Notes: a model not told the origin generated them from the sequence alone. DNA of 32,125 nucleotides from Candidatus Nitrosotalea okcheonensis (GCF_900177045.1 NZ_LT841358.1:1940461-1972585); one strand, 5' to 3'; positions 55 to 32,125 are shown, counted from the stretch's first letter. A program made the numbers and translations.

Positions 55-402
55 ATGCCTAAAACCGTATATTCTGGAAAAAAAGATTTTTTAGAAAACA
101 TGCAGGTAAGAACACTAAATATCGATATAATATCTGAAGAAGATTTAGAACAAAACAATCCTACTCTCAAAAGCATCCTAAAGGTTGAAAAACTCTTCAA
201 AGAGAATACTGAATTTAATTCTAAAAATCAGATTTTAAGAAAATTAGACGGTAGCATGAAGGCACCCGTTCTGAATATTATTTTGAAATATCTAAAAGGA
301 TTAGGGAAGATAATTGATAACGAAGATGGTTCTTGGACTTGGATATATGCGGTAGATAATGAAAAATTGAAGAAAAGCTACATAGATGCTGTCAAGTTAT
401 AG
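55..402 (+). CDS. Small winged-helix-like protein (115 aa)
   Basis: I do not recognise a specific family. The protein is 115 residues, charged and without a signal peptide, so it should be cytoplasmic. The C-terminal half, about residues 58-105, has a helix-helix pattern followed by a short beta-hairpin with Trp93 and Trp95 (DGSWTWIY), which resembles a small winged helix-turn-helix fold; this is inference from the pattern only. The start is ATG 55, with an AT-rich TATA-like stretch at 26-33. It lies just before the secretion ATPase gene in the same direction but has its own spacing of 82 nt, so it may be an independent regulator of the transfer cluster. Base composition is very A+T-rich compared with the ATPase genes. 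Confidence 0.7.
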   Translation: MPKTVYSGKKDFLENMQVRTLNIDIISEEDLEQNNPTLKSILKVEKLFKENTEFNSKNQILRKLDGSMKAPVLNIILKYLKGLGKIIDNEDGSWTWIYAVDNEKLKKSYIDAVKL

Positions 403-484: not shown

Positions 485-1969
485 GTGACTTCAAAAATCA
501 TTGCACTTGATGCAAACATAGAACAAGTGCAGGTCATTGATCATTATGCAGTAAACCAAGCTGAAGTTTTCATTACAGCTACCGGTGAATATTTGATAAA
601 AGAACCTCACTTGGAACAAAACGAGTTTCAAATTTATGAAAAGATAATGGACCATCTCATGAATTCTTTGCCATTTCTTGACAAACTAGAGACTGAGGAA
701 GAACGCATTCACCATCTGGAAAAATACATCTGGCAAGATGCTCAGGAAAAAGGAATTGTAAATCAGGTCTCAAAATTTTATGACCGTCTAAAATATTATA
801 TTGTTCGTGAAGTTTTGGGGTATGGCGTTTTCGATGTCTTGATGAATGATGATGACATAGAAGAAATTCTAATTGAAAGACACGATACAGATGTTGGAGT
901 GATACATCGAAAACATTCTGAAATGCACATACTTGATACAAATATTGTCATAGGCAAATCTAGTCTGATGGATTCTTACACTCAAAGACTTGTTCAAAAG
1001 ACTGGAAAATCTGTTACAGTGGCCAAGCCCATAATGGATGGAACAACTAGAACAAAACACAGAATCATGGTCATATATGGAAAAGAGGTCTCAGGCAACG
1101 GCTCAACCGTATCCATAAGAAAATTTCCATCAAAACCCTATACTATCACACATCTGTTACAATTTGGAACCATAAGCAAACTGATGGCGGCATATGTCTG
1201 GATGCTAATAGACGCAAAGGCATTTGGCCTTATAATTGGAGAAACTGGCTCTGGAAAGACTACGTTGATAAATTCTCTGATGACTATGGCCAATCCAAGA
1301 TGGCGAATCATAACAATAGAAGAAACGCCTGAACTTCAGATACCGCAGAAACGTACAGTGTCATTACATACAAGATCAAGCCCACTTGTCAAATCAGATA
1401 ATGATATTGGAATTATGGAACTAATCAAGGCAACACTAAGAATGAGACCTGACTTTGTCATTGTAGGAGAGGTTCGCGGAAAGGAAGCAAACGAGATGTT
1501 CCAGAGTGCTGCAACTGGACATGGGGGGCTAAGCTCTGTTCATGGCTCTGACATAAAATCAGCATTAACAAGACTTGCGGCAGAACCAATCAACATAAAA
1601 CTTTCACAGCAAATGTTGCTTTGGTTTGCAATCCATTCAACTACACTCAAAGGTACAGATGGAAAAACAATGCGAAGAATAAAGACGCTGACAGAAATTA
1701 ATCCAACAGATACGGGAATAGAAACAACAGATTTGTTTAGTTTTGATAGGAAGAACAATGACTTTGGTCTCAGCAGTATAGAGGAACTGGTTAAGAAAAG
1801 TAAAAGACTACCATACATTGCAGAACTTTTCGGTATTGATCTTGTAACTGACATAGAAAAAAGAATGACATTGCTTGATGCATGCATTGAAAAAAAGGCT
1901 TACGAGGTATCAGATGTTTTCAATATCTTGCGTCAATACTATCAATTCTATCCAACAATGAAGAATTAG
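485..1969 (+). CDS. VirB11/GspE-family secretion ATPase (494 aa)
   Basis: A hexameric ATPase of the type II/IV secretion superfamily (GspE, archaeal FlaI, TadA, VirB11), which drives pilus assembly or substrate export at the cytoplasmic face. Visible motifs in order: an N-terminal domain with the archaeal signature around residues 108-155 (GYGVFDVL, then IEEILIE); Walker A GETGSGKT at 252-259; an Asp-box-like IEETPEL at 278-284; Walker B RPDFVIVGEVRG at 321-332; and the His box GHGGLSSVHG at 345-354. All catalytic motifs are intact. The length fits archaeal family members. The start is GTG. The next gene is a VirB4-like ATPase and pilin-like genes follow, which favours a type IV secretion or pilus role. 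No TadC/FlaJ-type membrane platform gene, the usual partner, is present in the window. Confidence 0.93.
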   Translation: MTSKIIALDANIEQVQVIDHYAVNQAEVFITATGEYLIKEPHLEQNEFQIYEKIMDHLMNSLPFLDKLETEEERIHHLEKYIWQDAQEKGIVNQVSKFYDRLKYYIVREVLGYGVFDVLMNDDDIEEILIERHDTDVGVIHRKHSEMHILDTNIVIGKSSLMDSYTQRLVQKTGKSVTVAKPIMDGTTRTKHRIMVIYGKEVSGNGSTVSIRKFPSKPYTITHLLQFGTISKLMAAYVWMLIDAKAFGLIIGETGSGKTTLINSLMTMANPRWRIITIEETPELQIPQKRTVSLHTRSSPLVKSDNDIGIMELIKATLRMRPDFVIVGEVRGKEANEMFQSAATGHGGLSSVHGSDIKSALTRLAAEPINIKLSQQMLLWFAIHSTTLKGTDGKTMRRIKTLTEINPTDTGIETTDLFSFDRKNNDFGLSSIEELVKKSKRLPYIAELFGIDLVTDIEKRMTLLDACIEKKAYEVSDVFNILRQYYQFYPTMKN

Positions 1970-1987
1970 TTATTTGATTATCATTCC

Positions 1988-1995
1988 CTTAAAAA
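1988..1995 (+). promoter_or_regulatory. TATA box of the VirB4-like ATPase gene
   Basis: CTTAAAAA ends 19 nt before the GTG at 2015, so this gene probably has its own leaderless promoter despite following the first ATPase closely. Confidence 0.5.
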
Positions 1996-2014
1996 GAAAT
2001 ATTCTCTAAATTCT

Positions 2015-3817
2015 GTGCAAAGAACCAAGACAATACATAACTATGAAGTAAAGCCAACAAATTTCTTTACACTTTCTGATGAAAAGCAACGAACTGTACT
2101 ATCACATTTTTATTCACTGCTCACTTCAATCCAGGAACCACTTTGTATTACAATGATAAAAGAACCGTTAGATGCACAGATGGGAAACGAAATAAGACAT
2201 CTCCAAATCTTGAGAACTTTTATGTCAAGTGCAGAGCCCTTGGATTGGGTACTTGAAAGACAGGGTTTTGATTATTTTCTTGCAACAAATATGGTACCAT
2301 TTTCTGTAAAAAATGAATTTCTAAAACATGTAATACTTGAGAATGGCAAGTTAGCCAAATGCTTTACACTGTATTCTCTCTCTTCCACGCTCTCACCGGC
2401 ATGGATTCACTCCCTGCTTCCTGTATCTGATGCAATAATGCTCAATTTTGCTCCCATAGAGCAAGACAAGGCAGTTTCAAAATTGAGAAAAAAGATTCAC
2501 CTCATGCAAGCTACACAAAGCACCAATCCAAAAATGATACATCAAATACAGATGGCACTTGAGGCCGTATCTGCACTTGAAAAAAACAGTACAAAATTGT
2601 TCACAGTTACTGCCAATGTGATAGTCCAAGCTGACGATCTAAAATCATTAAAGGAAAAATCAAAAAAATTTGTAAAACAAACCAGGATATCTCTCTCAAG
2701 TTTTGACAACACATCTGCAAACCAGGCCAGAATGTTAACTGGATGGGGAAAAAAACTCTACGTCGAGCTTGGCTCTTGTGCAGTTTTTTATCCATTTGTA
2801 AGCGCAGACATGTTAGAAGTTCCAAATGGAATTACCATAGGTGTAAACTATAGCACTGGTGCACCTGTCATCTTCAACTATACAATGCGTGCAAACTATA
2901 ACATACTGATTTTAGCAGGCTCGGGTGCAGGCAAGTCTGTTACTGCCAAACTAATGATGAAGAGACTGATGGACAAATATCCGGATGCGTTCATCTTTGT
3001 TGTTGACCCACAGGGCGAGTATGAAAATATTGCCAAATATCTTGATGTGGAACCAATAAGAATCACAGGAGAACAAGAACTTGGCTTTGATCCATTCAAG
3101 ATGTTTGAAAAACCAAGTGATGCGGTAAACGTTTTGTGTGAGATTGCCCAAGCCCCAACACTTGTTGCAAATTCATTTTTGGCAAAATGTAATGGAATAA
3201 AAAGCCTTGATGAGTTTTATGAAAAACTCTCAGATGAAGAGAAAAAATATCTGGTAAATCTTGTTACTGGTCCAATGGCAACTCTGTTCAAGGGCCAGCC
3301 TGCAATATCTGATCGTACTATCATATCACTAAAAGGAACCTATGCTGAAGATTCTGTAGCAAAGATTAGCTTTCTTGCATTGGCTAAATTGTGGAAAAAG
3401 ATAGAGGCCGCACCAGTAGAGATTCCAAAAATACTTGTAATTGATGAAGGACATCTCATATTCCGGTTTGCCAGTGCCTCAAAATTTGTAGATTTGCTTG
3501 CACGCATGGGCAGGAAAAAGAATGTAATTTTCATGTTTATTTCACAGCGGGTAGAAGATGTAACAAAGACAGAGGCAGGACGTGCATTCTTTGATAACAG
3601 TGAGACGAAAATAATACTACGAAACAACGAGATTGCGGCTGAAGAACTTGGAAGATCATTGCAGTTATCTCCTCAGGAAAAAGACATGATTCAGACATTT
3701 GTTCCAGGAGATGCCTTGATCTTGACACGTGATTACAGGATTCGTTGTTCCATTACTCCATCAAAAGAAGAGCTTGACATGTTTGGCACATCGCCATTGA
3801 ACACAAATGCAGCTTAA
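2015..3817 (+). CDS. VirB4/HerA-type conjugation ATPase (600 aa)
   Basis: A VirB4-like ATPase of the HerA/FtsK superfamily. In conjugation and archaeal DNA-import systems it powers pilus biogenesis or DNA movement at the membrane. The first 280 residues form the less conserved VirB4 N-terminal domain. The motor domain shows Walker A GSGAGKS at 302-308, the VirB4/HerA motif DPQGEY at 331-336, Walker B ILVIDEGH at 473-480, and the ISQRVEDV segment at 509-516 with its conserved Gln and Arg. The C-terminus has the usual PGDALILTRDYRI strand pair (564-576). The start is GTG, with a TATA box about 20 nt upstream. Its stop overlaps the next gene by 11 nt, so the two are probably co-translated. CedB and TraC are other members of this family; the context of a VirB11-type ATPase and pilins supports type IV secretion. 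Confidence 0.93.
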   Translation: MQRTKTIHNYEVKPTNFFTLSDEKQRTVLSHFYSLLTSIQEPLCITMIKEPLDAQMGNEIRHLQILRTFMSSAEPLDWVLERQGFDYFLATNMVPFSVKNEFLKHVILENGKLAKCFTLYSLSSTLSPAWIHSLLPVSDAIMLNFAPIEQDKAVSKLRKKIHLMQATQSTNPKMIHQIQMALEAVSALEKNSTKLFTVTANVIVQADDLKSLKEKSKKFVKQTRISLSSFDNTSANQARMLTGWGKKLYVELGSCAVFYPFVSADMLEVPNGITIGVNYSTGAPVIFNYTMRANYNILILAGSGAGKSVTAKLMMKRLMDKYPDAFIFVVDPQGEYENIAKYLDVEPIRITGEQELGFDPFKMFEKPSDAVNVLCEIAQAPTLVANSFLAKCNGIKSLDEFYEKLSDEEKKYLVNLVTGPMATLFKGQPAISDRTIISLKGTYAEDSVAKISFLALAKLWKKIEAAPVEIPKILVIDEGHLIFRFASASKFVDLLARMGRKKNVIFMFISQRVEDVTKTEAGRAFFDNSETKIILRNNEIAAEELGRSLQLSPQEKDMIQTFVPGDALILTRDYRIRCSITPSKEELDMFGTSPLNTNAA

Positions 3818-4070
3818 GAACAAGTATTACAAATATTTCCAAGAGATGTCTGGTATCATTGGAATCTCAGAAATTGATTTAGCAGAAAAGATTGGAAATC
3901 TTCATGTCGGGGACAAATTTGAAACACAAACTCATACTATACGTGTCAAGAAGATATCAGAATCCAATGGGCAAGTGCTTTACCATGTGTGCCTTTATGA
4001 TGGTACAGGCAAGTTGATTCGAAACGATCCTATATTTCTGAGTCAGCCAAAAAGACAAAAGCACATGTGA
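3807..4070 (+). CDS. Small hypothetical protein overlapping the VirB4-like gene (87 aa)
   Basis: I do not recognise this protein. It is 87 residues, basic, without a signal peptide or membrane segment. The N-terminal 30 residues look helical. Residues 30-75 read as alternating beta-strands (VGDKFETQTHTIRVKKI, then VLYHVCLYDG), like a small beta-barrel or SH3/OB-type fold; that is inference. The ATG at 3807 lies inside the end of the VirB4-like gene (11-nt overlap in another frame), so translation is probably coupled. This suggests a small cytoplasmic partner of the ATPase. Confidence 0.75.
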   Translation: MQLKNKYYKYFQEMSGIIGISEIDLAEKIGNLHVGDKFETQTHTIRVKKISESNGQVLYHVCLYDGTGKLIRNDPIFLSQPKRQKHM

Positions 4071-4072
4071 GC

Positions 4073-4080
4073 CTTTAAAA
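4073..4080 (+). promoter_or_regulatory. TATA box of the first pilin-like gene
   Basis: CTTTAAAA ends 19 nt before the GTG at 4100. This spacing supports GTG 4100 rather than the upstream TTG 4082 as the start of the pilin. Confidence 0.55.
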
Positions 4081-4099
4081 CTTGATTTGTTTTGCATGT

Positions 4100-4525
4100 G
4101 TGAAAAGACGTGGTGTACATTCTGCATATGCAATTTCTTTGCTGGTAATCATAGCAGTAGGAATGTCTGGTATTGTCTATAATTATATGAATACATCAAA
4201 CAGCATACTCTCATCAAATGCAGAATACACAATAAACACGGCAACCCTTTCAGGAATACAGTCTGGAATTTTAACTTGGTATGACATTGTTTTACAAAAT
4301 ACAGGAAACAAACCTTTCATTCAAACAACGATATCTGTGGACATTAACGGTGTAACGTATGATCTTTCACAGAATACAACAAGCATTGGTCCTAGTCAGA
4401 CATTAGAGCAAAAAGGTATTCTAAACGTCGCAGTTGTTTATGGCAACAGCTATGCTGTAAGAGTAAGCGCAACAACAAGCGATGGTTCTACATTTGTTAC
4501 TAGCAGACAGATTAATGCAGGATAG
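4100..4525 (+). CDS. Class III signal-peptide pilin-like protein 1 (141 aa)
   Basis: A type IV pilin/archaellin-like subunit, expected to be processed by a PibD/FlaK-type peptidase and to sit in the membrane or a filament. From GTG 4100 the protein begins MKRRGVHSAYAIS, a short basic leader with a predicted cut after RRG, followed at once by a hydrophobic helix through about residue 28. The rest is a beta-rich extracellular domain with repeated N-x-S/T sites. The longer reading from TTG 4082 would add six residues (MICFAC) before the leader, which does not fit a class III leader or the TATA box at 4073. A second pilin follows 64 nt downstream with its own promoter. Alternative: a minor pilin or adhesin subunit. 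Confidence 0.82.
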   Translation: MKRRGVHSAYAISLLVIIAVGMSGIVYNYMNTSNSILSSNAEYTINTATLSGIQSGILTWYDIVLQNTGNKPFIQTTISVDINGVTYDLSQNTTSIGPSQTLEQKGILNVAVVYGNSYAVRVSATTSDGSTFVTSRQINAG

Positions 4526-4563
4526 GACAAGTTAGAAAATGAAGATAAGACTTTGATCAAGTG

Positions 4564-4570
4564 CTTTAAA
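4564..4570 (+). promoter_or_regulatory. TATA box of the second pilin-like gene
   Basis: CTTTAAA ends 19 nt before the ATG at 4590, giving a leaderless transcript for the second pilin. Confidence 0.55.
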
Positions 4571-4589
4571 TCTGCTATATCTTGTTATC

Positions 4590-5015
4590 ATGATGCAACG
4601 AAGAGGAATATCCGAGATATATTCTACAATCATGATGTTTACAGTAGCTCTTGCCATTGCAGGGATTGTAATTGCAGCATCATCTAACCAGTTTAACAAT
4701 CAACAGCAAAGTGCCTATCAGATGCTGGATTCGTCCCAAAAGAGAATGTCAGAGAGCGTATCATTTGTAACAGGAAGAGACACAGGCACGGGATCAGAGG
4801 TAGAATTAGTAAATTTTGGCCTTGCAAATATTAATTTAGACAGGGTCATGGTGGATGCAGTACGACAACAATCCTATACTATGACATTTGTTAATGGTAC
4901 ACAAACCCAATTTTTGCCAGTAAAAGAACCTGTGATAATATCAACTGGTACATCCGGCGCTAAAATGCAGATTGTTACAACATATGGTTCAATCTTTGAA
5001 TTTCCACTGCAATAA
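4590..5015 (+). CDS. Class III signal-peptide pilin-like protein 2 (141 aa)
   Basis: A second pilin/archaellin-like subunit. The N-terminus MMQRRGISEIYSTIMM shows the class III leader, with predicted processing after RRG and before ISE, then a hydrophobic helix to about residue 33 (AGIVIAAS). A Gln/Asn-rich stretch (QFNNQQQSAYQ) and a beta-rich head domain follow. The ISEI motif after the cut is typical of thaumarchaeal and euryarchaeal pilins and flagellins. It has the same length as pilin 1 but little sequence in common beyond the leader, so the two probably have different positions in one filament. Two adjacent ATGs (4590, 4593) are possible starts. Confidence 0.85.
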   Translation: MMQRRGISEIYSTIMMFTVALAIAGIVIAASSNQFNNQQQSAYQMLDSSQKRMSESVSFVTGRDTGTGSEVELVNFGLANINLDRVMVDAVRQQSYTMTFVNGTQTQFLPVKEPVIISTGTSGAKMQIVTTYGSIFEFPLQ

Positions 5016-5020
5016 TTTTG

Positions 5021-5030
5021 CTTTTTAAAA
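5021..5030 (+). promoter_or_regulatory. TATA box of the 730-residue surface protein gene
   Basis: CTTTTTAAAA ends 18 nt before the GTG at 5049. Confidence 0.5.
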
Positions 5031-5048
5031 TCACTTTTCTTAATCTGC

Positions 5049-7241
5049 GTGAAGAAAATCATTGGTCTGACACTAATTTCATTGATCTTGTTTTCTCCTT
5101 CCATGATGCCGACATCTTCTGCAGACATGCTCATTCCTGGCTGCAAAGTTTGGTTGGACATACATACAACTCCATCACAGTACAACGGATTGTCTCGCAG
5201 TAATCCTGATGGCACGTTTTATCCTGGTGATGCATTTGATTTTGCAATCACTGTTCACTGGAATTCCTGGTGTTGGTCAATCAAACCAAAATCAATAAAC
5301 GCAGACGGTCTTCAAATTAGTCAGATTCAAGTTTCACCAATATCATCAGGGGGAGGACAGTCTTTTGGATATACAGAGTCAGGACATGCAGAGATTGGAA
5401 TTGGTTCAAGTGCTGCAACTTTATCTCAAGTTGTTTTTGGGTATGGTTTAATTTGTAATTTCAATCCACAAACTGGCGGTACATGTTTTAGAGGTAGTAC
5501 TGCTGGAAGTACTTCATATTCTCCTCCGATAATCTCACCAAAAGTAACAATTGATCTAACAAAACAAAACTTGACCGATACAGATGGTTTTATGATGAGA
5601 AATCTAGACGGGACATATTATATCTGGGATGGAATCAATATTGTTTTCAATCCGCAATATCAATGGAAGAATCAAAGGGTTGGTACAATTTCAGCACATA
5701 CTACCTACTCATCAGACATATATTTACAAAAAGATTTTGAATGTCAAAAAAAATCTTGCAGTGATACACTACTATATTCCAGGGCAAAGCCTTGGACATT
5801 TTCATATGAATATGCGCAGGGCCAGACAAATTGGGTCCCAGAAACTAGTTCAGATATCAAAAAACACATTTTCACGTATAAAACAACCGTGTATAATCTT
5901 GGAAGATTGATTGGCCAAAGCCAATTTACAAAGACAGATGCGTTGGTTGTAAAATATGATCCCGTATACAATTCAAGTTATGGCTATACGGTGCTAAAAG
6001 ACGGCCAATGGTGGGGGTTTGGGAACAGGCCTGCTGTGGCTATGCATTATCTTGGGTCCAAAGGTGGTGGACAGGACGACATGGACCCGGGAGTTCATGA
6101 ATATAGACGAAGCAAGATAAACTCATTTTCTTACACTAGTTATGCATACAAGATCCTAACACCTGTACCGCTAAATGTTACCATGACATGGTCAGAGTCA
6201 CATTCTGCAAATTTCATCGATGATAATTTTGCATATCAAAGCAATTCGTTACAGTCAGGAAATAATGTAGCCATGTTTGTAAAATCGGGATATGGTGATA
6301 TAATATTTCAGCATCCCATTTTGTTTACCATATTAAAAACACGTTATGATAATTCCACGATAATCAATACATTACAATCTGTAAACTTTGCAGGACTGGA
6401 CAAGCTTGATCTTTCAAAATATTATTTTGGATATCCACATACTAGATTTAGTACTGATGTGATTGTAATTGCCTTGCACTCTGATGGTTCCATAAATCAC
6501 ATACCGCTTGATTTGAAGATGATGCCTGATTATTCCGAGAATGCAACATATGAACAGGATTTCATAAGAACCAAAGTCATCCATGACAGAGACAGGATCT
6601 TTGCCGGAATTGTACTAAATGACATGTATGGAAAAGACAATTTGGCAACAGGTACTGGAGTGATAAATTTGCGAGCACATCTTACATCGATGGTAATACC
6701 AGACGTATCGCAAGTATTTGCACAAAATCCTCTTGATCTTCCTCTCAATTTGGTGTATGAACAACCCTCGCCGTATAATGTTACAATCACTGCAGAAGGA
6801 AAACAACTCTCGTTTATAGAACATGGATTTGAGTTTGATACAAATTGGAAATATGTAGTCAACATGGACCAAAACAATATGCTCAACGGTACAAGATACC
6901 AGGGAATTGTAACCATCCATCCTGACAATAACTTTGGGCCATACTCTCAGGTTCTAGTAGATGGAAAGATGCAAAACATTACTTGCACAAAGGGATGCAC
7001 TGTCATGCTATCTGATAGAAACAAAAATTCTACAGTTGATGCATACAACATTTGGGGTGGCAAGGCATCGCAGACTTTTGATATAGACAACTCTACGCCT
7101 CAAGATACCTATGATTATAGCAAAATTGCTATCTTGGTACTACTAGTATCATTAGCTGTCATTGGCTATGGATTTGTCAGGCGTTATTGGCGCGGGTTTG
7201 CAGCAGCAATAGGTTTTGGAGACAACGACGAAGGCAAATAA
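5049..7241 (+). CDS. Secreted surface protein with C-terminal membrane anchor (730 aa)
   Basis: No named family recognised. From GTG 5049 the protein starts with a signal peptide (MKKIIGLTLISLILF, likely cleaved near residue 25, SSA/D). A long, aromatic- and Asn/Ser/Thr-rich ectodomain follows. One transmembrane segment lies at about residues 693-711 (AILVLLVSLAVIGYGF), then a short basic cytoplasmic tail (RRYWRGF). Cysteine pairs occur near residues 31/72, 134/145, 227/233 and 647/651, which suggests disulfides outside the cell. The gene lies directly after the two pilins, each with its own promoter, so it may be the cell-surface anchor or tip/adhesion component of the same apparatus. That role is inferred only from position. 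Confidence 0.8.
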   Translation: MKKIIGLTLISLILFSPSMMPTSSADMLIPGCKVWLDIHTTPSQYNGLSRSNPDGTFYPGDAFDFAITVHWNSWCWSIKPKSINADGLQISQIQVSPISSGGGQSFGYTESGHAEIGIGSSAATLSQVVFGYGLICNFNPQTGGTCFRGSTAGSTSYSPPIISPKVTIDLTKQNLTDTDGFMMRNLDGTYYIWDGINIVFNPQYQWKNQRVGTISAHTTYSSDIYLQKDFECQKKSCSDTLLYSRAKPWTFSYEYAQGQTNWVPETSSDIKKHIFTYKTTVYNLGRLIGQSQFTKTDALVVKYDPVYNSSYGYTVLKDGQWWGFGNRPAVAMHYLGSKGGGQDDMDPGVHEYRRSKINSFSYTSYAYKILTPVPLNVTMTWSESHSANFIDDNFAYQSNSLQSGNNVAMFVKSGYGDIIFQHPILFTILKTRYDNSTIINTLQSVNFAGLDKLDLSKYYFGYPHTRFSTDVIVIALHSDGSINHIPLDLKMMPDYSENATYEQDFIRTKVIHDRDRIFAGIVLNDMYGKDNLATGTGVINLRAHLTSMVIPDVSQVFAQNPLDLPLNLVYEQPSPYNVTITAEGKQLSFIEHGFEFDTNWKYVVNMDQNNMLNGTRYQGIVTIHPDNNFGPYSQVLVDGKMQNITCTKGCTVMLSDRNKNSTVDAYNIWGGKASQTFDIDNSTPQDTYDYSKIAILVLLVSLAVIGYGFVRRYWRGFAAAIGFGDNDEGK

Positions 7242-7285
7242 ATCATGAAAGGTGTAGAGAGGAATTAATATCGTATCCACCATTG

Positions 7286-8515
7286 TCATCTTTTTTTTAT
7301 ATGAATTGGAACACCACATCTTGCACAACGAACTTTGAGACTGTCACATATTGAACGATTTAGCCTGTCTTGGTCCTCTGGTGATACTTGATGCGGATCA
7401 CACTGTATAGTAATATCTGTCAGGGATAGATCTTGAGCAGGACTGTGTACAAAGGTAGGTGTTACACCAACACCAAAGTTGATTGTCTGAATGTCTTTTT
7501 CTTGTGGAAATGACAAAAAGAATGCAAGTTCTACATCCGATAAGGCAAGACTTTTTGAATGTAATTTTTGAGGTATGAAAGTATACGGATCAATTGATTT
7601 GACAGAAAACAATTCTGCAAGTTTTTGTCTGAAAGTCTTTTTTCCATGTATGAATTTGATCTTACGAGATGTAATTCTATAAGCAAAACTGTTGAGAAGA
7701 ACAGTGTTGATCATATCATCTAATGTCTTGGTTGACTGGACAATATCTGCCCTTGATCTTTCCACCTCCAATTTGAAAGCATCTTTTATTTTTTTGACAT
7801 TGTCATGATGAATCTTGTTTTGCTTCTCGTATTCATTTTCGAATTGTTCATCGATAAGATCTTTTTTTAGATTAGCGATATGATTTTCAAACAGAATTTT
7901 TTCTTGATTTATACTATTTCTTTTTTCTATATCTAACTCTGAGAATTCATGTAGAGTTGTCTCTACTCCAAATATGATAAAACAATTATACAGATTATGC
8001 CCATCAAGTTTGCTTTTTGCCCCCACAAGATCTGCCTTTATTTTACTTGAAAATACGACATTTTTCTTTGACATTCTACTCTCAAGTGAGGTCACTTTAC
8101 CGTGTATTGTGTTTGAGATTTTTTTGGTCTGGTCCTGAACAAAGCAAGCCATCATACACCTAGATGATTCCTGCCAGAATTTAGAATAGACATCACTTTT
8201 TACTATTTTGGCAAGATCTACAAGAGGAACCATAAAGTGATTTTTTAACGCAAGATATTTTGTAACCATTTGTTCAAAATGTGGCGGGTCTATACGTTCT
8301 ACTGTAAGACCATCAATTGTCCCAAAGATATTTCTGTCTTTATTTGTAGTTCGGACTATCAGCCTCATTTCAGACTTGTTCCTGAAAACAAAGAATGCAA
8401 ATTCAGTAGCATATTGGATTATCTTTAGGACTTGATTTTCTTGATCATCTTTGAATCTCTGTTGAGGCTTGATCTCAAGCCAAATAAACCCATCATCTTG
8501 TATTTCTGATGCCAT
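7286..8515 (-). CDS. N-terminal module of a TraG/VirD4-like coupling protein (409 aa)
   Basis: This looks like the non-ATPase N-terminal part of TraG/HerA-type coupling proteins, encoded alone. Family-like features are the opening FIWLEIKPQQRF (residues 10-21), the FAFFVFRNKSEMRLIVR strand pair (39-55), the LALKNHFMVPLVDLAKI segment (88-104), a central helical or coiled-coil part (about 200-270), and near the C-terminus ALSDVELAFFLSFPQ, where such proteins run into the ATPase domain. Here no Walker A follows; the protein ends with a CxxC (CARCG). The ATPase at 26279 begins almost directly at its motor domain, so the two products may form one split coupling protein. The assignment rests on remembered family patterns and needs a profile search. 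It is transcribed divergently from the gene at 8585, with TATA 8537-8544 in the shared promoter region. Confidence 0.75.
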   Translation of the reverse strand: MASEIQDDGFIWLEIKPQQRFKDDQENQVLKIIQYATEFAFFVFRNKSEMRLIVRTTNKDRNIFGTIDGLTVERIDPPHFEQMVTKYLALKNHFMVPLVDLAKIVKSDVYSKFWQESSRCMMACFVQDQTKKISNTIHGKVTSLESRMSKKNVVFSSKIKADLVGAKSKLDGHNLYNCFIIFGVETTLHEFSELDIEKRNSINQEKILFENHIANLKKDLIDEQFENEYEKQNKIHHDNVKKIKDAFKLEVERSRADIVQSTKTLDDMINTVLLNSFAYRITSRKIKFIHGKKTFRQKLAELFSVKSIDPYTFIPQKLHSKSLALSDVELAFFLSFPQEKDIQTINFGVGVTPTFVHSPAQDLSLTDITIQCDPHQVSPEDQDRLNRSICDSLKVRCARCGVPIHIKKR

Positions 8516-8584: not shown

Positions 8585-9601
8585 ATGTTAAAGATTATTT
8601 TGGCAGTTGCAGCAATTACGATGGTATCATTTTTCTTTGTTACAGTGCATGCAATAGGATTTGACAACAGCTTGGAACGTTTGGTCATTGAGAAACAAAA
8701 GGAGTATCCATCATGGTATGTTGGAAAGGACATTTTGTCGCAGCAAAACTACACATATCACATATGCGATTATTCCATAAAGCCGACTCTGAATTATGCA
8801 ACTCCGTGTTATCAGGCAGAACTTGACTTTATTGGACTCTTGCAAGAACAGACTGGACAGACTTGGATAGTTCAAGCGATTTTTACACCCGATGATACCG
8901 GCAAGCATTGGTTTTCCATTTTGCACATATCTTCAGATTTTGCAACAATTACAACTGACGGTGCTAGCATGAATTATGCCACGTCACTTTCACATACTAT
9001 ATTTTATTTACAAAAATATGCAAACATGCACAAACCGCAATTGCTCAAGATAGGAACATCATGGGGACTAGTAGATGAATATGTATCACCAGTTCCACAG
9101 TTCACGGTAAATAGATTTACTACCATACCTATGGGAGATACCACTACATCAGCATACCAAGTTGGGTTTGAAGTAGTACAAGACAATACTTTTTACATAA
9201 AAGATAACATTCCATTTCCAATAGAGAGTACGCTTTATGATTCAAAGACTGCAAACACTGATGCGCCAGCTCTCTATCAAGTAAAACTGTTGAGCTTCTC
9301 TAATGTGACAAAAAACACTACTGCTTTACAAGCCAGCAGCAACAATTCGGAACCTCAACAGCCCATCATCCCACTTTCAAAGCAATCACAGACGCAGCCA
9401 TTACCAAATGATACAAACAATGCTTACTCAAACCAGACTATATCAAACACTGAAAACAACTTTACACAAAATACACTGCAAAACAATGCTGGAAATCTGG
9501 ATCAAAATTATACAAATGAAATTAACTTTACCACAGAAGGTCAGATACTCAAGGCATTCAAGGGACTAGGTGGAAATCTTACTCTAAATTCAACAGGGTA
9601 A
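8585..9601 (+). CDS. Secreted protein with Asn/Gln-rich tail (338 aa)
   Basis: No named family recognised. The signal peptide covers about residues 1-23 (ILAVAAITMVSFFFVTVHA). A folded domain to about residue 235 contains two cysteines (C61, C77) and many aromatic residues. From about residue 236 a low-complexity tail rich in Asn, Gln, Ser and Thr carries many N-x-S/T sites, typical of a glycosylated stalk. There is no C-terminal transmembrane segment or sorting motif, so it may be released or held by other envelope proteins. The ATG at 8585 follows a TATA box with leaderless spacing. Confidence 0.78.
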   Translation: MLKIILAVAAITMVSFFFVTVHAIGFDNSLERLVIEKQKEYPSWYVGKDILSQQNYTYHICDYSIKPTLNYATPCYQAELDFIGLLQEQTGQTWIVQAIFTPDDTGKHWFSILHISSDFATITTDGASMNYATSLSHTIFYLQKYANMHKPQLLKIGTSWGLVDEYVSPVPQFTVNRFTTIPMGDTTTSAYQVGFEVVQDNTFYIKDNIPFPIESTLYDSKTANTDAPALYQVKLLSFSNVTKNTTALQASSNNSEPQQPIIPLSKQSQTQPLPNDTNNAYSNQTISNTENNFTQNTLQNNAGNLDQNYTNEINFTTEGQILKAFKGLGGNLTLNSTG

Positions 9602-13315: not shown

Positions 13316-15652
13316 ATGCAAAGAATAGCATTACTTTCTTTAGGATTATTACTGACAGCATTTGTGTTTAACAGTGCATATGCCACACAGATTCTAATCG
13401 TCACTGACAATGGCAATGTATTTCCAATCGCAAATACATCAAGTTCTTCTGCTACAGGAGCCGGTAATGGTAACGGTAATGGAACAGGTAATGGAGTCAT
13501 AGCACAGATTGTTACTACAAATCCAAAAGGTTTGGTAATTGCAGGAATAGACAGTGCTACTGGAAATTCAAGTTCGCTTAGACCCTACAACAAAGTTAAC
13601 ACTGGAACATTTGCGGCAGGATTTCAGACAAGTGATTCTGTTCAGAAAATGTACATTCCACAGATAAATGCGCCATATGTATACAGTAATGGAGTATTAC
13701 AAAGTAGCAGCACGCCGCTGCCAAACATATTGTCTCCTAGTTCAACTACTATACTTTCAGGTTCACCAAGCAGTACAACTTCATCAAGTGGGATTGGCAT
13801 TAGTGGCCCAGGCACTCTTGGAATTTTACTCAATAGTGGATTAGGCTCTACTGTTGTAACAGGATCAGGTATTACTGGTGGTGGCTCTGCATTTTTTGGA
13901 ACTTTGATAGATCATACAATATCCCCCACTGCTTATGATGGAGGTACTCATGGGTATACAATTTTTTCATCAAACATTGGAACAACCAGTGGAGGATATA
14001 CTGTAACAACTCCTGTCAACAAATATGTAAGTTCAGCAAACAATGCCTATGCGACATATACTTGGGGCTGGTCAGCTTGCAATATGAGTGCATACACAGC
14101 TTGGTCTTGGTCTTGTGGTTATGATTCTGGAACAGGTGTTGCAACAGTAAATGGATACGTATCAGGAAGTTACTACTATGTAACTTCTGTAACTTATAGT
14201 ACAACTGATCAGTATGCTGCAAATTATTATTCACACACTAGTTCTTCGTCATGTAGTGCGAAAGGAGGGTGTTCATATTTTCAGAGTGGTAGTTCGTTTG
14301 TGCCGTATATCACACTCTATGATAAATCACCATTTGTTCCGTTAACACAAACATACACAAGTGATTTTCAATCGCAAGTAAATTTCAATCCCTCATACTC
14401 GTACTGGTTGATTGTAACACCAACATCTGGGGGGACAACAATTGGTGCAACCAACTATGATCCTAGCACACAGATGTTTTTCAAAGTGACTAACTTGCCA
14501 GCTAACATACCGTTTCAGATATTACAAAACGGAGTAGTTGGTGTACAAGGTGTAACAAGCTCAAGTGGTACAATATCTTTGTCAGCCTCCCAAATAGCGG
14601 CAGGAGGTCAATCATCCATTAGTGGTGAATTGGACATTTATCCAAACTCTCCAGCATATGTCGGAACCATAGGTACGGCAGTTTATGATACAGTGAATAA
14701 TCAAATGTTCAACATACCTGCAGCATCTCAGCAGATCTATACTTCATTTGCTTATGTTCAAATTCCAATGGCTGCTAAAACAAATATACAAAACGTGGTA
14801 GACAATGCAACTTCGTTAATCAGCATACCATACTTGTCCAAGACATACAATGCAGGTTCATCTATGATGGTGCCAATCATTCCAGGACTAAAATCAATTT
14901 CATTTAGCCTCAATGGTACACAAACAGTGTTGAAAATGTCCTCCATTCCAAGCAATTTAGGAATATCAATTGTCACATCAGGTACAAACAGCAATTCGGG
15001 ATATGATACCAATGGAGCATCATTACAAATTAGTGCAGACACAGGAGGTGAAGCATCAGCTATTGCTCCAAAAGACGGAACAATGTATGCGTTAGTAAAT
15101 GCTCAAGTATCTGCAGACACATCATACACCACAAGTGCAACTTACAACTATCAACAGACGGCAACACAATACATCTACGAGGTGTACAATCCATCAATTG
15201 GTTGGTATGTAAAAGCACCATGCCCACAAGATCAATTTCAAGCCAGTGGGTGTACGGACCATTTATCATATGCATCATCGTCAGCTCATGCCGGACCACT
15301 TAGCGTATATGTAGATATTTACGTAAACGGCGTATTTTCTAATTCACAGATTATTTACTATAATCCAAATCCAATAATTCAGCAGACATCATCTGTAAAC
15401 AGTTGGTCATTCTCAGGTTCAAATGCAATGGCAATGCATTATCCTACTTCACAAGCTTCTGGAATAGTACAGATACCAGTACATGCGGGAGATTTGGTTG
15501 AATTTTACATGCGTGCACATGTGGATGCATATGGAGATCCAATATCAGTGCCAACAGGATACTATGGAGTATTTACTACTACAAATCAAGTATGCACTGG
15601 AAGTGCCACGATAAATCTTAACAGTGGCTCCATCCTGACAGGCATTAGTTAA
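13316..15652 (+). CDS. Large secreted Ser/Thr/Gly-rich surface protein (778 aa)
   Basis: The signal peptide covers residues 1-23 (IALLSLGLLLTAFVFNSAYA). A Gly/Asn repeat (GAGNGNGNGTGNG) near residue 50 and Ser/Thr/Gly-rich linkers to about residue 200 follow. A Tyr/Trp-rich region (about 240-340) includes a cysteine-bearing YTWGWSACNMSAYTAW stretch, and beta-rich domains run to the end. There is no C-terminal transmembrane helix. The composition is that of a glycosylated adhesin or S-layer-associated protein. The next gene (42 nt downstream, own promoter) encodes a 947-residue anchored protein; the two may act together at the cell surface. No catalytic motif recognised. Confidence 0.82.
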   Translation: MQRIALLSLGLLLTAFVFNSAYATQILIVTDNGNVFPIANTSSSSATGAGNGNGNGTGNGVIAQIVTTNPKGLVIAGIDSATGNSSSLRPYNKVNTGTFAAGFQTSDSVQKMYIPQINAPYVYSNGVLQSSSTPLPNILSPSSTTILSGSPSSTTSSSGIGISGPGTLGILLNSGLGSTVVTGSGITGGGSAFFGTLIDHTISPTAYDGGTHGYTIFSSNIGTTSGGYTVTTPVNKYVSSANNAYATYTWGWSACNMSAYTAWSWSCGYDSGTGVATVNGYVSGSYYYVTSVTYSTTDQYAANYYSHTSSSSCSAKGGCSYFQSGSSFVPYITLYDKSPFVPLTQTYTSDFQSQVNFNPSYSYWLIVTPTSGGTTIGATNYDPSTQMFFKVTNLPANIPFQILQNGVVGVQGVTSSSGTISLSASQIAAGGQSSISGELDIYPNSPAYVGTIGTAVYDTVNNQMFNIPAASQQIYTSFAYVQIPMAAKTNIQNVVDNATSLISIPYLSKTYNAGSSMMVPIIPGLKSISFSLNGTQTVLKMSSIPSNLGISIVTSGTNSNSGYDTNGASLQISADTGGEASAIAPKDGTMYALVNAQVSADTSYTTSATYNYQQTATQYIYEVYNPSIGWYVKAPCPQDQFQASGCTDHLSYASSSAHAGPLSVYVDIYVNGVFSNSQIIYYNPNPIIQQTSSVNSWSFSGSNAMAMHYPTSQASGIVQIPVHAGDLVEFYMRAHVDAYGDPISVPTGYYGVFTTTNQVCTGSATINLNSGSILTGIS

Positions 15653-15667
15653 CGATAAAAAATTCGT

Positions 15668-15675
15668 CTTAAATT
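15668..15675 (+). promoter_or_regulatory. TATA box of the 947-residue surface protein gene
   Basis: CTTAAATT ends 19 nt before the ATG at 15695. Confidence 0.5.
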
Positions 15676-15694
15676 ATGCATAATTTTTGGTTTT

Positions 15695-18538
15695 ATGCGA
15701 ACTGTGCTTTTTTTATTTTTTATTGGCATTATGATATCCCCACTTCAAGTGTTTGGGCAGCTTGACTCGATCCTAAATGATACCAATTCCAATTTATCAT
15801 CACAACAAGATGCGAGCAGTTTTACTATATGGATTCCAAGCAAAATGATCAGTGGCCAGGATTATGAAGGAATGGTACTTTTAGACAAGCCAGCAAACCA
15901 GCCAAGTATTTTTTACTTGTCTTCAAGTGATAAATCGACATTACAGATACCGCTTTCAATAACAGTGCCTCAGTCAGAAAATCATGGAATATTTGCAATC
16001 AAGACACTCAAAGATGGAAATGCTACGGTATTTGGTGCATTAAATGGGAACTTGGCTCAAAGTGCAACCATGGTTTACACTTCAAATTCACAACCATCTC
16101 AATTACAAATGATAATTCCAACATCTACCACCAAAGCACAAGATATGCAATCATATGTTTTTTCAGAAGACAAATTTGGATTGCCAGTACCAGTTGATGC
16201 AGATACCGAAATAACTGTAACAACATCGTCCATGATAACCGCGCCGCAAACTGTAATCATACCAAAGGGACAGTATTATACCACATTACCATTATTTACA
16301 AAAGGCAGTGGTATTATTTCGGCATCATCAGATAGCTTGGGTGTTGCAACTGCAAATGTTACAAAAATTAGTGACAATATAACAATCAAGCTAGCTATAG
16401 CTCCCGATACAGCATTGCCAAATTCACTTTCATATTATTATATATGGTTAGAAAAAAATGGATTACCATTCAAGCCCCCATACACAATTCATGCAACACT
16501 TACATCAAGTGATACAAATGTTGCAAGGTTTGGAAATAATTACGATGTCACACATTTTAACGACATACTTTATTCTACTACAATACGGGACGGAATTGCA
16601 AAAGGTTTTGTCTATACACGAAATGTTGGGAGCACGGTAATTTCCGCAAGCGTAGATGGGTTTGGTGCAGCAAGTGCTAACCTAATAGTTGGACCATCAA
16701 CGAACAATCAGGTAACAGGACAAAACATCACAAGTTATTGCAGTGTATTTGCACCATGCAAACCAAACATGGTGAAAATTTGGACATATCCAACTACATT
16801 TGATGACTCTGGATATGGCATAGTTGGACTATATCGTCAGATAAACCAATCAGGTACCAGTACAATCATTCCACTCGTTGCAGACAGCAGCACGGTCCAG
16901 TTGTCATCAAATGGACCTGATACAAATTATGACAAACAAATCAGCATGATACCCACTCGCATACCTGGAAGTAACGAGGAAACAGGGGTCGCACAAGCTG
17001 TAGAATTTGTCATTCAAGGGGGTGGAACCGGAAACTTTACCATGACTGCATCAGGCCCGGGAGAGATACCAGGAGTTGCAAATTTCGCTGTCCTGCCTAG
17101 ATATGATGACTCGTACAGCATCAAGATAACTCCGCTTCCAATCAATGCAGGAATCAATCAAGATCTTGGCATAATGTACATCGCAGACAGTACAGGTACA
17201 ATGGTGGAACCGTCAAATATTTTTGCGGAACCACCAAAAGTAGACATCAAAAGTACAATCCAAAATATGCCAAAGACACTAGATTTTACATCAACCAACA
17301 TGATACTCAGTGGGACAATCACTAAAAAATCAGAACTAGTAGCTTCAATTCAAGGAATTCCATCTTCAGCAATTTCAATTGTTCCTCTTGATGTTGCAAC
17401 AAACATAGAGTTTGAATTGCCTCCAAAAGTACACGTTGGAGAAAAATTCCCATATGTAGCATACAAAACAGATGCATTTGGCATACCGTTAGAAAGAATT
17501 GTACCAAGTGATGTATCCACAATAACCGGAGTAAACTTTGATCCTTCTGGTAGATACATGTCAGTAAATCAGGAAGGAATGGTAACAGTAGCAGTACTCT
17601 CTGACGATGGTGCAATCAAGCAGTCAATCAATTCATTTTACAATGACATGAATGTAAACACTGATGCAAACTCGACAATCTTCAAAGTAGGAAAGGACAA
17701 TATTTTCAATATAAAATCAGATATTAGTAATGTGATATACGAAGTGCAATCAATTTTTCCTGTTATCAAAAAAGGAGACGGGGAATATTCCATTACACCG
17801 TCAAGAGAACAGAATTTTGATGTGACTGTATTTGCACACAAGGATGGATTCAGACCAATATCGGAAACATTGCATCTTGTTTCAAAGAAAATAATTGACA
17901 TAACAATGATTGCAAAAGGAAATGATGGAACACAATTACACATCAGTCCAAAGTTTACTGTCAACAATTACTCCATTGCACAAAACACGCCATTTACTAC
18001 AACCGTAAATGCTGGCAATACAGACATGGAATTGCCGCCAAAAGTGATTTTACAAAACAAAAACTATGTGTTGGATAGGATAGATATTGGTGACCAGAGT
18101 TATACAGAAAATAAAGTACAAACATACCTAGAAGATGACTCGAACATAACTGCAACATATGACTTGGTCCTAAGCGTAAATGCAACAGACGCGATAGGCG
18201 GAGGATTTTACTCGTATGGAAGTACTGTTACGCTAGATGCTCCGGAGAAATGGCAAGCCTCATTCCTTGTAAGACAGGTCTTTGATCACTGGGAAGGCAG
18301 CAATCTGCCATTTGATTCCAAGGCAAACAATGTCAGTTTTACAGCAAAAGACAACGTATTTGCAACTGCAATCTACAGGCCTGATTACACATATCTGATG
18401 CTAGTAATAGCTGGGCCAATCACAGGAATATTTGCAATGAAAAAACGCAGTACCATCTCTTGGTATGCAAGAGAGATAACTGATACACTGGAAAAATTAA
18501 TTCCTAAATTATCCGTGAAGAAAAAATCAGAACTTTGA
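15695..18538 (+). CDS. Ig-like surface adhesin with InlB-like repeat and C-terminal anchor (947 aa)
   Basis: The signal peptide (residues 1-21, VLFLFFIGIMISPLQVFG) is followed by a long series of beta-sandwich-like segments. Recurring phrases such as GSGIISASSDSLGVATANV (near 205) and GSTVISASVDGFGAASANL (near 310) look like repeated bacterial Ig-like (Big_2-type) domains. Around residues 830-890 a GGGFYSYGSTVTLDA stretch followed by FDHWEGS fits a divergent InlB B-repeat. A transmembrane helix at about 900-916 (YLMLVIAGPITGIFAM) and a basic cytoplasmic tail end the protein. It is probably an extended adhesin standing out from the membrane. The InlB-like motif also occurs in the 1202-residue protein at 19385. 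Confidence 0.85.
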   Translation: MRTVLFLFFIGIMISPLQVFGQLDSILNDTNSNLSSQQDASSFTIWIPSKMISGQDYEGMVLLDKPANQPSIFYLSSSDKSTLQIPLSITVPQSENHGIFAIKTLKDGNATVFGALNGNLAQSATMVYTSNSQPSQLQMIIPTSTTKAQDMQSYVFSEDKFGLPVPVDADTEITVTTSSMITAPQTVIIPKGQYYTTLPLFTKGSGIISASSDSLGVATANVTKISDNITIKLAIAPDTALPNSLSYYYIWLEKNGLPFKPPYTIHATLTSSDTNVARFGNNYDVTHFNDILYSTTIRDGIAKGFVYTRNVGSTVISASVDGFGAASANLIVGPSTNNQVTGQNITSYCSVFAPCKPNMVKIWTYPTTFDDSGYGIVGLYRQINQSGTSTIIPLVADSSTVQLSSNGPDTNYDKQISMIPTRIPGSNEETGVAQAVEFVIQGGGTGNFTMTASGPGEIPGVANFAVLPRYDDSYSIKITPLPINAGINQDLGIMYIADSTGTMVEPSNIFAEPPKVDIKSTIQNMPKTLDFTSTNMILSGTITKKSELVASIQGIPSSAISIVPLDVATNIEFELPPKVHVGEKFPYVAYKTDAFGIPLERIVPSDVSTITGVNFDPSGRYMSVNQEGMVTVAVLSDDGAIKQSINSFYNDMNVNTDANSTIFKVGKDNIFNIKSDISNVIYEVQSIFPVIKKGDGEYSITPSREQNFDVTVFAHKDGFRPISETLHLVSKKIIDITMIAKGNDGTQLHISPKFTVNNYSIAQNTPFTTTVNAGNTDMELPPKVILQNKNYVLDRIDIGDQSYTENKVQTYLEDDSNITATYDLVLSVNATDAIGGGFYSYGSTVTLDAPEKWQASFLVRQVFDHWEGSNLPFDSKANNVSFTAKDNVFATAIYRPDYTYLMLVIAGPITGIFAMKKRSTISWYAREITDTLEKLIPKLSVKKKSEL

Positions 18539-18644
18539 ATCTGAAAATGTATCTTGGAGACATCAAATTCTATAGGTCTCACACCTAGAAAGAATGTTAA
18601 ACTGAAAATAAAAAGCAGTTAGTTAATGGTGAATGAAAAATGAT

Positions 18645-18669
18645 CTGAAATTTTTATGAGATAGTAACT
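18645..18669 (+). repeat. Direct repeat copy A flanking the 18.7-23.5 kb module
   Basis: A 24-nt stretch TGAAATTTTTATGAG followed by ATAGTAACT recurs at 23504-23527 with two mismatches (TGAAATTTTTACGAG, CTAGTAACT) in the same orientation. It lies in the otherwise featureless 230-nt gap after the 947-residue gene. Confidence 0.6.
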
Positions 18670-18770
18670 GTGTCTTACATATCTTACACTTTTGGATGCA
18701 ACATATGAGAGTAATTACTACTGGAATGAGTATTTTTGGAAAATAATTCTGTGAGAATAGAAAATAGATT

Positions 18771-19232
18771 CTAATAAAATATGCCGTGCGCAGCTCTACA
18801 AGCTTGATCTGTACAATTCGGAGGAATAACTGTTGCCGGTGTATCTGTTTTTACACTTATCACCTTTGAAACCTGCGGATCTACTGTGACATGAACTTCT
18901 CCTGCAAATGGAGATGTTGAATTTGACAACTCAAAGGTTGCAACAATATCATTCAACACAGCTGTACATGTAGAAGAGCTAGCATTCCAATTGTAATTTG
19001 TAGACAGCCACTTCACTTGATACTTTTGGTGTAGTGATTTGATATCTGTAGAATTATTAAAGATGAATCCAACTGTTTTCTTTTCTAAATCCAAAGTTGC
19101 GATCTGACTTTCTTGTTGACTGATCTGAGTTGAGCAAGTACTTGTAGCAGATGAAGAGGCATGTGAATAAGAAAGAGTGATTGGCAATAATATCAATGCA
19201 GACAAACTGATAACAAACAATACAAGTCTCAT
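18771..19232 (-). CDS. Small secreted protein (153 aa)
   Basis: The signal peptide covers about residues 1-25 (VLFVISLSALILLPITLSYSHA). A helical segment with a QQES-type pattern, a beta-rich part with N-x-S/T sites and a cysteine-bearing C-terminus (PPNCTDQACRAAHGIFY) follow. Five cysteines are visible (one near 33, one near 89, a pair near 140/145). No family recognised. It is transcribed divergently from the 1202-residue adhesin gene, and a TATA element (TATATAA) lies about 25 nt upstream of its ATG, so the pair could share regulation. Confidence 0.72.
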   Translation of the reverse strand: MRLVLFVISLSALILLPITLSYSHASSSATSTCSTQISQQESQIATLDLEKKTVGFIFNNSTDIKSLHQKYQVKWLSTNYNWNASSSTCTAVLNDIVATFELSNSTSPFAGEVHVTVDPQVSKVISVKTDTPATVIPPNCTDQACRAAHGIFY

Positions 19233-19353
19233 TTTACATTCTATCGTTATATTTTTTATATAATACTTTGGTATATTTTTGATGATACATTATTCTGTAA
19301 AAATTTTCTGAAATTGTTTTTAGAACAATCTAACAGAATTTTTCTACGCGTCT

Positions 19354-19361
19354 CTTATATT
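19354..19361 (+). promoter_or_regulatory. TATA box of the 1202-residue adhesin gene
   Basis: CTTATATT ends 23 nt before the TTG at 19385, supporting this TTG (or the in-frame ATG at 19394) as the start. Confidence 0.45.
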
Positions 19362-19384
19362 GTAAAACAATACTATGTCACTAG

Positions 19385-29297: not shown

Positions 29298-29777
29298 TTA
29301 CATGATGATTTCAAAACAAGTATCTTTTGTAACAACGCCTAGATCAATTGGTTTTACCGATATTATTTTGTAGACTAATTTCTCATTAAAAAAAGGCAAA
29401 ATTATCACATTTCCCTTCATGATAGGCTGTTCCTCTAGGCAATCTTTTAGATATTGTTCAGTCCCAGATGGAATCTGTTTCACGGGTGATACTACAACTG
29501 TATTGGCGTTAACAAGATTAATCGACTGTATAGTTACAGAGTCACCAATTCCCACATCCATATTCTTTCTAGATGTGGAATCAACTCTCAAAATATTCAA
29601 ATTTGCGTCAGAAACTCGTAGCGGAAGACATTTTGCTACGGTCTTTTTCTTTCCACCTATCTCGATCATGTCACCTGTAGTGACATGTAATTCATCCATG
29701 GCCTCAAAACTTAGTCTAGCAAAACCTCGCCCAATATCCGTAGAATATGCTTTTTGAACAGGTAAGGAAATCTGCAT
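29298..29777 (-). CDS. Stand-alone Cdc48/VAT N-terminal-domain protein (159 aa)
   Basis: The opening (QKAYSTDIGRGFARLSFEAM, then GDMIEIGGKKKTVAKCLPL) is the double-psi beta-barrel signature of the Cdc48/p97/VAT N-domain (VAT-Nn), and the second half (residues about 90-159) fits the smaller VAT-Nc barrel. Full-length Cdc48 proteins continue into two AAA ATPase modules; here the protein ends after the N-domain, with no Walker motifs. The N-domain recruits substrates and adaptors, so a free copy could compete for, or act as an adaptor to, the host proteasome-linked ATPase. That role is inferred. The ATG is at 29777 on the minus strand, upstream of an AT-rich region. Confidence 0.85.
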   Translation of the reverse strand: MQISLPVQKAYSTDIGRGFARLSFEAMDELHVTTGDMIEIGGKKKTVAKCLPLRVSDANLNILRVDSTSRKNMDVGIGDSVTIQSINLVNANTVVVSPVKQIPSGTEQYLKDCLEEQPIMKGNVIILPFFNEKLVYKIISVKPIDLGVVTKDTCFEIIM

Positions 29778-32063: not shown

Positions 32064-32104
32064 TTGGACCCGATTTGAAATGCGGTTGCCGGGATTTGGA
32101 CCCG
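32064..32104. other. Probable attachment region at the tRNA 3' end
   Basis: The tRNA 3' end (32081 onward) is the expected attB-derived site. The 9-mer TTGGACCCG occurs twice here, at 32064-32072 next to the tRNA and at 32096-32104 inside its T-arm, 32 nt apart. No further copy of the T-arm sequence was seen elsewhere in the window, so the partner att site would lie beyond the left edge. Confidence 0.4.
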
Positions 32105-32125
32105 GGTCGCAGAATTGGCAATCCC
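32081..32125 (-). tRNA. tRNA-Gly(GCC), 3' half, cut by the window edge
   Basis: Read on the minus strand the edge sequence ends with the T-arm CCGGG-TCCAAAT-CCCGG, acceptor strand CAACCGC and discriminator A (32081). The last visible bases give GGGATTGCCAATTCT, an anticodon loop TTGCCAA with anticodon GCC (Gly) and partial stems. The 5' half lies outside the window. CCA is not encoded. Confidence 0.8.

Follow-up and report, generated by a model that had tools for sequence, protein, structure and literature searches.

Probable co-encoding of an Ups-like mating pilus and a VirB2/3/4/6-type channel by an integrative conjugative element of Candidatus Nitrosotalea okcheonensis CS

How archaea conjugate is largely unknown. 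The Ups pilus of Sulfolobales (UpsA/B/E/F) is associated with DNA exchange. In these organisms, Ups pili aggregate cells and work together with Ced, which moves the DNA (PMC9905601, PMC11868833). According to Beltran et al. (2023, PMC9905601), conjugative plasmids of archaea have neither a recognisable relaxase nor a recognisable pilus protein. Integrative conjugative elements (ICEs) of thaumarchaea are described by Krupovic et al. (2019, PMC6563490), in whose main text they carry VirB4, VirD4, VirB6, VirB3, TadC, FlaI, PilT, a prepilin peptidase and pilins. These ICEs have TFIIB upstream of ParB, no relaxase, and a median length of 64 kb; one of them, NitNCS1-E3, is named in strain CS and has a UvrD-like helicase.

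The 32,125-nucleotide stretch of DNA that we analysed (the window) spans positions 1940461-1972585 of the 1.97-Mb single-contig genome of Ca. N. okcheonensis, a soil ammonia-oxidising archaeon, and makes up the right-hand half of an ICE of 64.7 kb at tRNA-Gly (Table 1). The element has the hallmarks of an ICE: its integrase is of the tyrosine type, and its attachment sites are direct repeats at a tRNA gene. The site is empty in four relatives (G040, G064, G115 and G128), where the same host gene directly abuts tRNA-Gly; here, ~72 kb lies between the two, consisting of the 64.7-kb element and a 7-kb remnant. By GC content (37.0%, compared to 36.9-37.4% for the host), the element cannot be told apart from its host. 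The remnant, which lies to the left of attL (genome C1:1900816-1907785, L005) and stems from an earlier integration at the same tRNA, contains a truncated integrase 90% identical to that of the window, as well as a short piece of a coupling protein. The contig ends (window 32067-32125) with the same 59 bases with which it begins (genome C1:1-59), and this untrimmed overlap falls within the attachment site and tRNA-Gly; the genome is therefore circular.

Table 1. Features of the element. Positions are those of the window unless marked as genome positions, and gene identities hold at the level given in the first and last columns.
Feature	Position	Strand	Evidence or remark
Left attachment site	genome 1907785		Second copy of the 26-bp direct repeat
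TFIIB-like gene	genome 1924768	+	Pfam TFIIB E 0.084 (weak)
ParB-like gene	genome 1925597	+	Called from resemblance and position
VirB6-like polytopic protein, 573 aa	genome 1933917-1935638	same as TadC
Prepilin peptidase	genome 1935793-1936461	same as TadC	A24 1.8e-7
TadC/FlaJ (UpsF-like) platform	genome 1936483-1938363	opposite to 145-aa pilin, VirB3-like, VirB2-like and 84-aa genes	T2SSF 2.4e-10
Third class III pilin, 145 aa	genome 1938444		Leader KRKA
VirB3/PrgI-like protein, 218 aa	genome 1938919
Candidate VirB2-like pilin, 104 aa	genome 1939599		Two helices
84-aa membrane protein	genome 1939991
115-aa protein	55-402	+	First window gene of the operon
FlaI/GspE2 (UpsE/BasE-like) pilus-assembly ATPase, 494 aa	485-1969	+	Pfam T2SSE E 7.8e-33
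VirB4/TraC-like conjugation ATPase, 600 aa	2015-3817	+	TraG P-loop 7.9e-10, DUF87/HerA 1.8e-9
Small 87-aa protein	3807-4070	+	Overlaps the VirB4 ORF by 11 bases; conserved in 9 loci
Class III (UpsA-like) pilin	4082-4525	+	Leader KRRG, then VHSAYAISLL; KRRG followed by VHSAYAISLLVII passes the class III leader scan
Class III pilin	4590-5015	+	Leader QRRG, then ISEIYSTIMMF, passes the class III leader scan; relatives found
730-aa secreted protein	5049-7241	+	C-terminal membrane anchor; recurs in relatives
409-aa protein	7286-8515	-	Conserved with the VirB4 core
338-aa secreted protein	8585-9601	+	Family recurs in related elements
VirD4/TraG-like coupling protein	26279-28726	+	Pfam TrwB_AAD_bind 1.5e-5, TraG-D_C 4.9e-4
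Tyrosine integrase	30710-32017	-	Phage_integrase 8.5e-4, below the Pfam cut-off; adjoins the attachment site
Right attachment site	32067-32092 (genome 1972527)		26-bp direct repeat GACCCGATTTGAAATGCGGTTGCCGG, reaches into the 3' end of tRNA-Gly(gcc)

Similar to the ICEs in the main text of Krupovic et al. (2019), the element combines a VirB4 and VirD4/TraG pair with VirB6, VirB3, TadC, FlaI, a peptidase and pilins, the membership of VirB3 and VirB6 being based on family-level or structural evidence. The likeness extends to TFIIB upstream of ParB, a UvrD-like helicase, the lack of a recognised relaxase, a length of ~64 kb, and the strain itself. The PilT ATPase listed for those ICEs, however, was not found in the element, and the genome has a distant P-loop match outside it (genome 695780). 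Judging by strain, helicase and class of element, rather than by a comparison of coordinates, our element is very probably NitNCS1-E3. Because the element fits these ICEs, its mixture of conjugation and pilus genes is already known, having been published in 2019 (PMC6563490); a VirB2-like candidate and the likeness to Ups are absent from the main text of that paper.

The TFIIB-like gene stands immediately upstream of, and overlaps, the ParB-like gene, an arrangement shared by most of the related loci in which a TFIIB was recognised. The UvrD-like helicase is fused to a PD-(D/E)XK nuclease domain, and the element also encodes an actin-like gene, an ArdC-like gene and DNA methyltransferases. Among the ICE proteins scanned (part of the ORFs) no relaxase family was found, apart from one weak NikA-like ribbon-helix-helix match (E 0.039), and VirB8, VirB9 or VirB10 were not recognised in the element. 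We also noted two minus-strand genes near the right end: a stand-alone CDC48 N-terminal region (CDC48_N and CDC48_2, window 29298-29777) without the ATPase domains, and, adjoining the integrase, a distant uracil-DNA-glycosylase-superfamily protein just under the Pfam cut-off (window 29837-30580).

An initial annotation, made from the window, had described a VirB4/HerA-type ATPase, a small protein overlapping it, two pilins with archaellin-like leaders, and an anchored surface protein, and all of these were borne out (Table 1). The 600-aa ATPase matches VirB4 in the PDB (4ag5, 2e-11). Both pilin ORFs have a class III leader (KRRG and QRRG) followed by a long hydrophobic stretch, and the first of them matches UpsA of NCBIfam at 36.7 bits (E 4.1e-9), below the cut-off of 130. 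In profile searches of relatives, 29 loci had the FlaI-type ATPase and 18 had the surface protein; the 409-aa and 87-aa proteins were recovered from 12 and nine loci, respectively. The 115-aa protein was found only in the two copies in this genome and in one close relative. Since the ORFs at window 485-8515 all recur in relatives, they are real genes. The surface protein is also retained in related elements that have no pilus cassette. The coupling-protein module, which the initial annotation had placed beside this cluster, belongs to the same element but is 18 kb away; the coupling protein, in which no N-terminal membrane span was seen, recurs beside VirB4 in relatives. Between the two (window 13316-22993) lie the genes of three secreted proteins without Pfam domains, all of them very long (778, 947 and 1202 aa), of which the 778-aa and 947-aa proteins are retained in a second copy of the ICE.

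The 494-aa ATPase had been called GspE/VirB11-type. It is indeed a T2SSE-family ATPase, but the VirB11 label did not hold. NCBIfam scores (BasE 301 bits, FlaI 276 bits, and VirB11 118 bits against a VirB11 cut-off of 250) ruled out a VirB11 identity, and the PDB ranking (afGspE best with 232 bits, FlaI 186, VirB11 62) agrees. Judged by these scores, the protein is FlaI/GspE2/BasE-like rather than VirB11-like. The VirB4-linked FlaI-type ATPases group in a single clade (SH-aLRT 100), distinct from the FlaI of the host archaellum and from other pilus ATPases; six rows coded as not linked also fall within this clade, and for at least one of these a VirB4 lies 18 kb away. The archaellum of the host is encoded by a full operon of its own (genome ~503-510 kb) with a FlaI of a different clade, and this separate operon, together with the separation in the tree, ruled out that the ATPase is borrowed from the host archaellum.

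The initial annotation had remarked that neither a TadC/FlaJ nor a VirB6-like platform was visible. This is true of the window, but it is a window-edge artefact: inspection of the flanking DNA, which the same annotation had recommended, revealed TadC, a VirB6-like protein and a prepilin peptidase 2.1-6.5 kb past the left edge. TadC is closest to UpsF in NCBIfam (261 bits, below the equivalog cut-off of 400). In the family of the 218-aa protein, 13 of 23 members match PrgI (best 3.2e-6), and this VirB3/PrgI-like gene is directly upstream of VirB4 in five loci. The 573-aa protein has no Pfam match of its own, and two of the 28 members of its family match TrbL/VirB6 (PF04610). The top PDB matches of its AlphaFold model (pLDDT 70) are R388 VirB6/TrwI (Foldseek probability 0.99; Z 9.1, 8.7 and 8.7), followed by DotA (Z 7.9) and by unrelated rows at 6.9 or less, a ranking to be read with caution as helical proteins readily give middling Z. 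The model thus provides good but not conclusive evidence that this protein is VirB6-like.

Between the VirB3-like gene and the ATPases stands a gene for a 104-aa protein. Seven of the 18 members of its family match T4SS_pilin (PF18895; best 1.6e-8), and the copy in this element reaches 25.4 bits against a cut-off of 26.6. Its model has two long helices (pLDDT 69), and a PDB fold search with this low-confidence model returned no match. PDB sequence searches with the VirB2-like and VirB6-like profiles yielded nothing useful. The sequence matches weakly suggest a VirB2-like pilin.

We compared the locus across relatives. VirB4 has named relatives in Ca. Nitrosotalea. Relatives of VirB4 are present in 61 of 300 Nitrososphaeria genomes; none was found in the viral contigs searched. 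Maps of 51 VirB4 loci revealed a shared core (VirB4, the VirB3-like, VirB6-like and 84-aa/VirB2-like proteins, the coupling protein and, often, the 730-aa surface protein), with the pilus cassette present or absent. Of the 33 loci on contigs longer than 40 kb, 18 have a FlaI-type ATPase no more than 25 kb from VirB4 (1.9 expected) and 16 have TadC at such a distance (1.7 expected). The expectations assume random placement and, the loci being related, overstate the significance. This linkage ruled out that the ATPases belong to unrelated neighbouring operons. Together with the gene set and order kept in the second copy, it supports the initial view that the ATPases and pilins belong together, as a transfer module of a conjugative element whose genes are inherited jointly. 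Presence or absence of the FlaI-type ATPase changes at least seven times on the VirB4 tree, a quick tree with some long branches. Four genomes (G119, G219, G243 and G292) have a VirB4 locus and no FlaI-type or T2SSF match anywhere in the genome. Collectively, the pilus half is a distinct and separable cassette in related VirB4 loci, a finding that is new in this analysis.

The initial annotation had further proposed a conjugation apparatus built on a type IV-pilus-like filament. In such a composite machine, the class III pilins would form the conjugative filament, and the FlaI-type ATPase would take the place of a third ATPase, similar to VirB11. In keeping with this idea, the genes of the FlaI-type ATPase and VirB4 are immediate neighbours in 15 loci (seven on the same strand and eight on the opposite strand), and the FlaI-type ATPase is sometimes retained without TadC nearby (L027, G218 contig 95) or without any T2SSF match in the genome (G132). 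However, the ATPase has its own TadC platform and prepilin peptidase encoded next to it, it resembles FlaI/GspE and not VirB11, many VirB4 cores (L034-L040 and L044-L048) have neither a FlaI-type ATPase nor a class III pilin close by, and a separate VirB2-like candidate is present. The composite machine is therefore unlikely. We also noted that L027 and L028 retain the prepilin peptidase without the TadC-pilin pair.

We favour instead two co-encoded machines, and consider it probable that the ICE of Ca. N. okcheonensis CS specifies both a mating pilus similar to Ups and a channel of VirB2/3/4/6 type, because the VirB core occurs without the cassette, and motor, platform and peptidase are all encoded within the cassette. 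Together, the two would make up a transfer module of archaeal style that looks complete. The first machine would be a type IV secretion core of VirB4, the VirD4/TraG-like protein, the VirB6-like protein, the VirB3/PrgI-like protein and the candidate VirB2-like pilin, which would pump the DNA of the excised element through a membrane channel or thin pilus. The second would be an Ups-like cassette of the FlaI/UpsE-type ATPase, the TadC/UpsF platform, the prepilin peptidase and three class III pilins, whose pilus would keep donor and recipient together (mating-pair formation), a role modelled on Ups pili serving Ced in Sulfolobales. This division of labour, the direction of transfer, and the activity of both machines are what we infer from these genes. 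In bacteria, VirB11 works with the secretion core. By analogy, at loci with a FlaI-type ATPase but no TadC, the ATPase may sometimes serve the secretion core or VirB4 directly, since several VirB4-linked copies (G218 contig 95, G132) are without TadC. More broadly, and tentatively, thaumarchaeal ICEs could carry an exchangeable Ups-like mating-pair cassette that has been repeatedly gained and lost beside a VirB2/3/4/6-VirD4 core.

Of the annotated families, those of the Sulfolobales Ups pilus are closest to TadC (UpsF) and to one pilin (UpsA), but all scores here are below the equivalog cut-offs, and Ups of Sulfolobales is chromosomal rather than mobile. With Ced and Ted, the locus shares a VirB6-like channel, a VirB4/HerA-class ATPase and a candidate two-helix VirB2-like pilin. 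Unlike Ced/Ted, it has a VirB4 of the conjugal VirB4/TraC kind (~125 bits for VirB4-like conjugal ATPases of NCBIfam versus 21.9 bits for CedB, cut-off 700), and it also encodes a coupling protein and a VirB3/PrgI-like protein. Homologues of VirB3, VirB4, VirB6 and VirD4 and a candidate VirB2 recall bacterial VirB/VirD4 type IV secretion, from which the locus differs in the absence of a recognised relaxase and VirB8/9/10, and in having a FlaI-type ATPase with its own TadC platform in place of VirB11. If the broader reading of an exchangeable cassette is true, the division of labour between Ups and Ced, encoded on the chromosomes of Sulfolobales, would here travel as a single mobile unit. The VirB2-like pilin would then count among the earliest conjugative pilins of this kind to be recognised in a mobile element of archaea. 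The element supplies a candidate VirB2-like pilin, VirB3/PrgI-like and VirB6-like proteins and a separable pilus cassette; with two of these, the cassette and the pilin candidate, archaeal conjugation becomes easier to test. Strain CS was obtained in enrichment culture, hence excision and transfer are open to testing.

A second copy of the module is present at genome ~798-864 kb, with gene set and order kept at 83-97% nucleotide identity. It is broken up by insertions and has a stop in the coupling protein; neither an integrase nor direct repeats of at least 20 bases around the copy were found. Such decay could suggest an ordinary host-type adhesion pilus that stands by chance beside a decaying conjugation locus, with no joint function, and TadC, the FlaI-type ATPase, the prepilin peptidase and the pilins do amount to a full type IV pilus set. 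This alternative is nevertheless very unlikely given the strong and recurrent linkage to VirB4, the repeated gain and loss, the interleaving of pilus genes with the VirB3-like and VirB2-like genes in one run, and an ATPase clade apart from those of the host archaellum and other pili.

A tRNA-Asp gene lies inside the second copy (genome C1:846658-846730, L012). The genome has two amoA genes, ~402 kb apart and 95.1% identical. The extra, isolated amoA (genome C1:795135-795683, L123) and the second ICE copy are separated by ~3 kb, and a mobile element may have carried or duplicated this gene. Further along (L120:7831-13536, genome ~878-884 kb), we noted a casposon of Family 2 that encodes Cas1 and a PolB divided between two ORFs, adjoining tRNA-Pro. 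Both a pair of amoA genes and a casposon with a divided PolB by tRNA-Pro have been reported for Ca. N. okcheonensis CS (PMC5767755; PMC6563490). These two traits are unusual and identify the host as this strain, and the casposon of this genome matches the published NitNCS1-C1.
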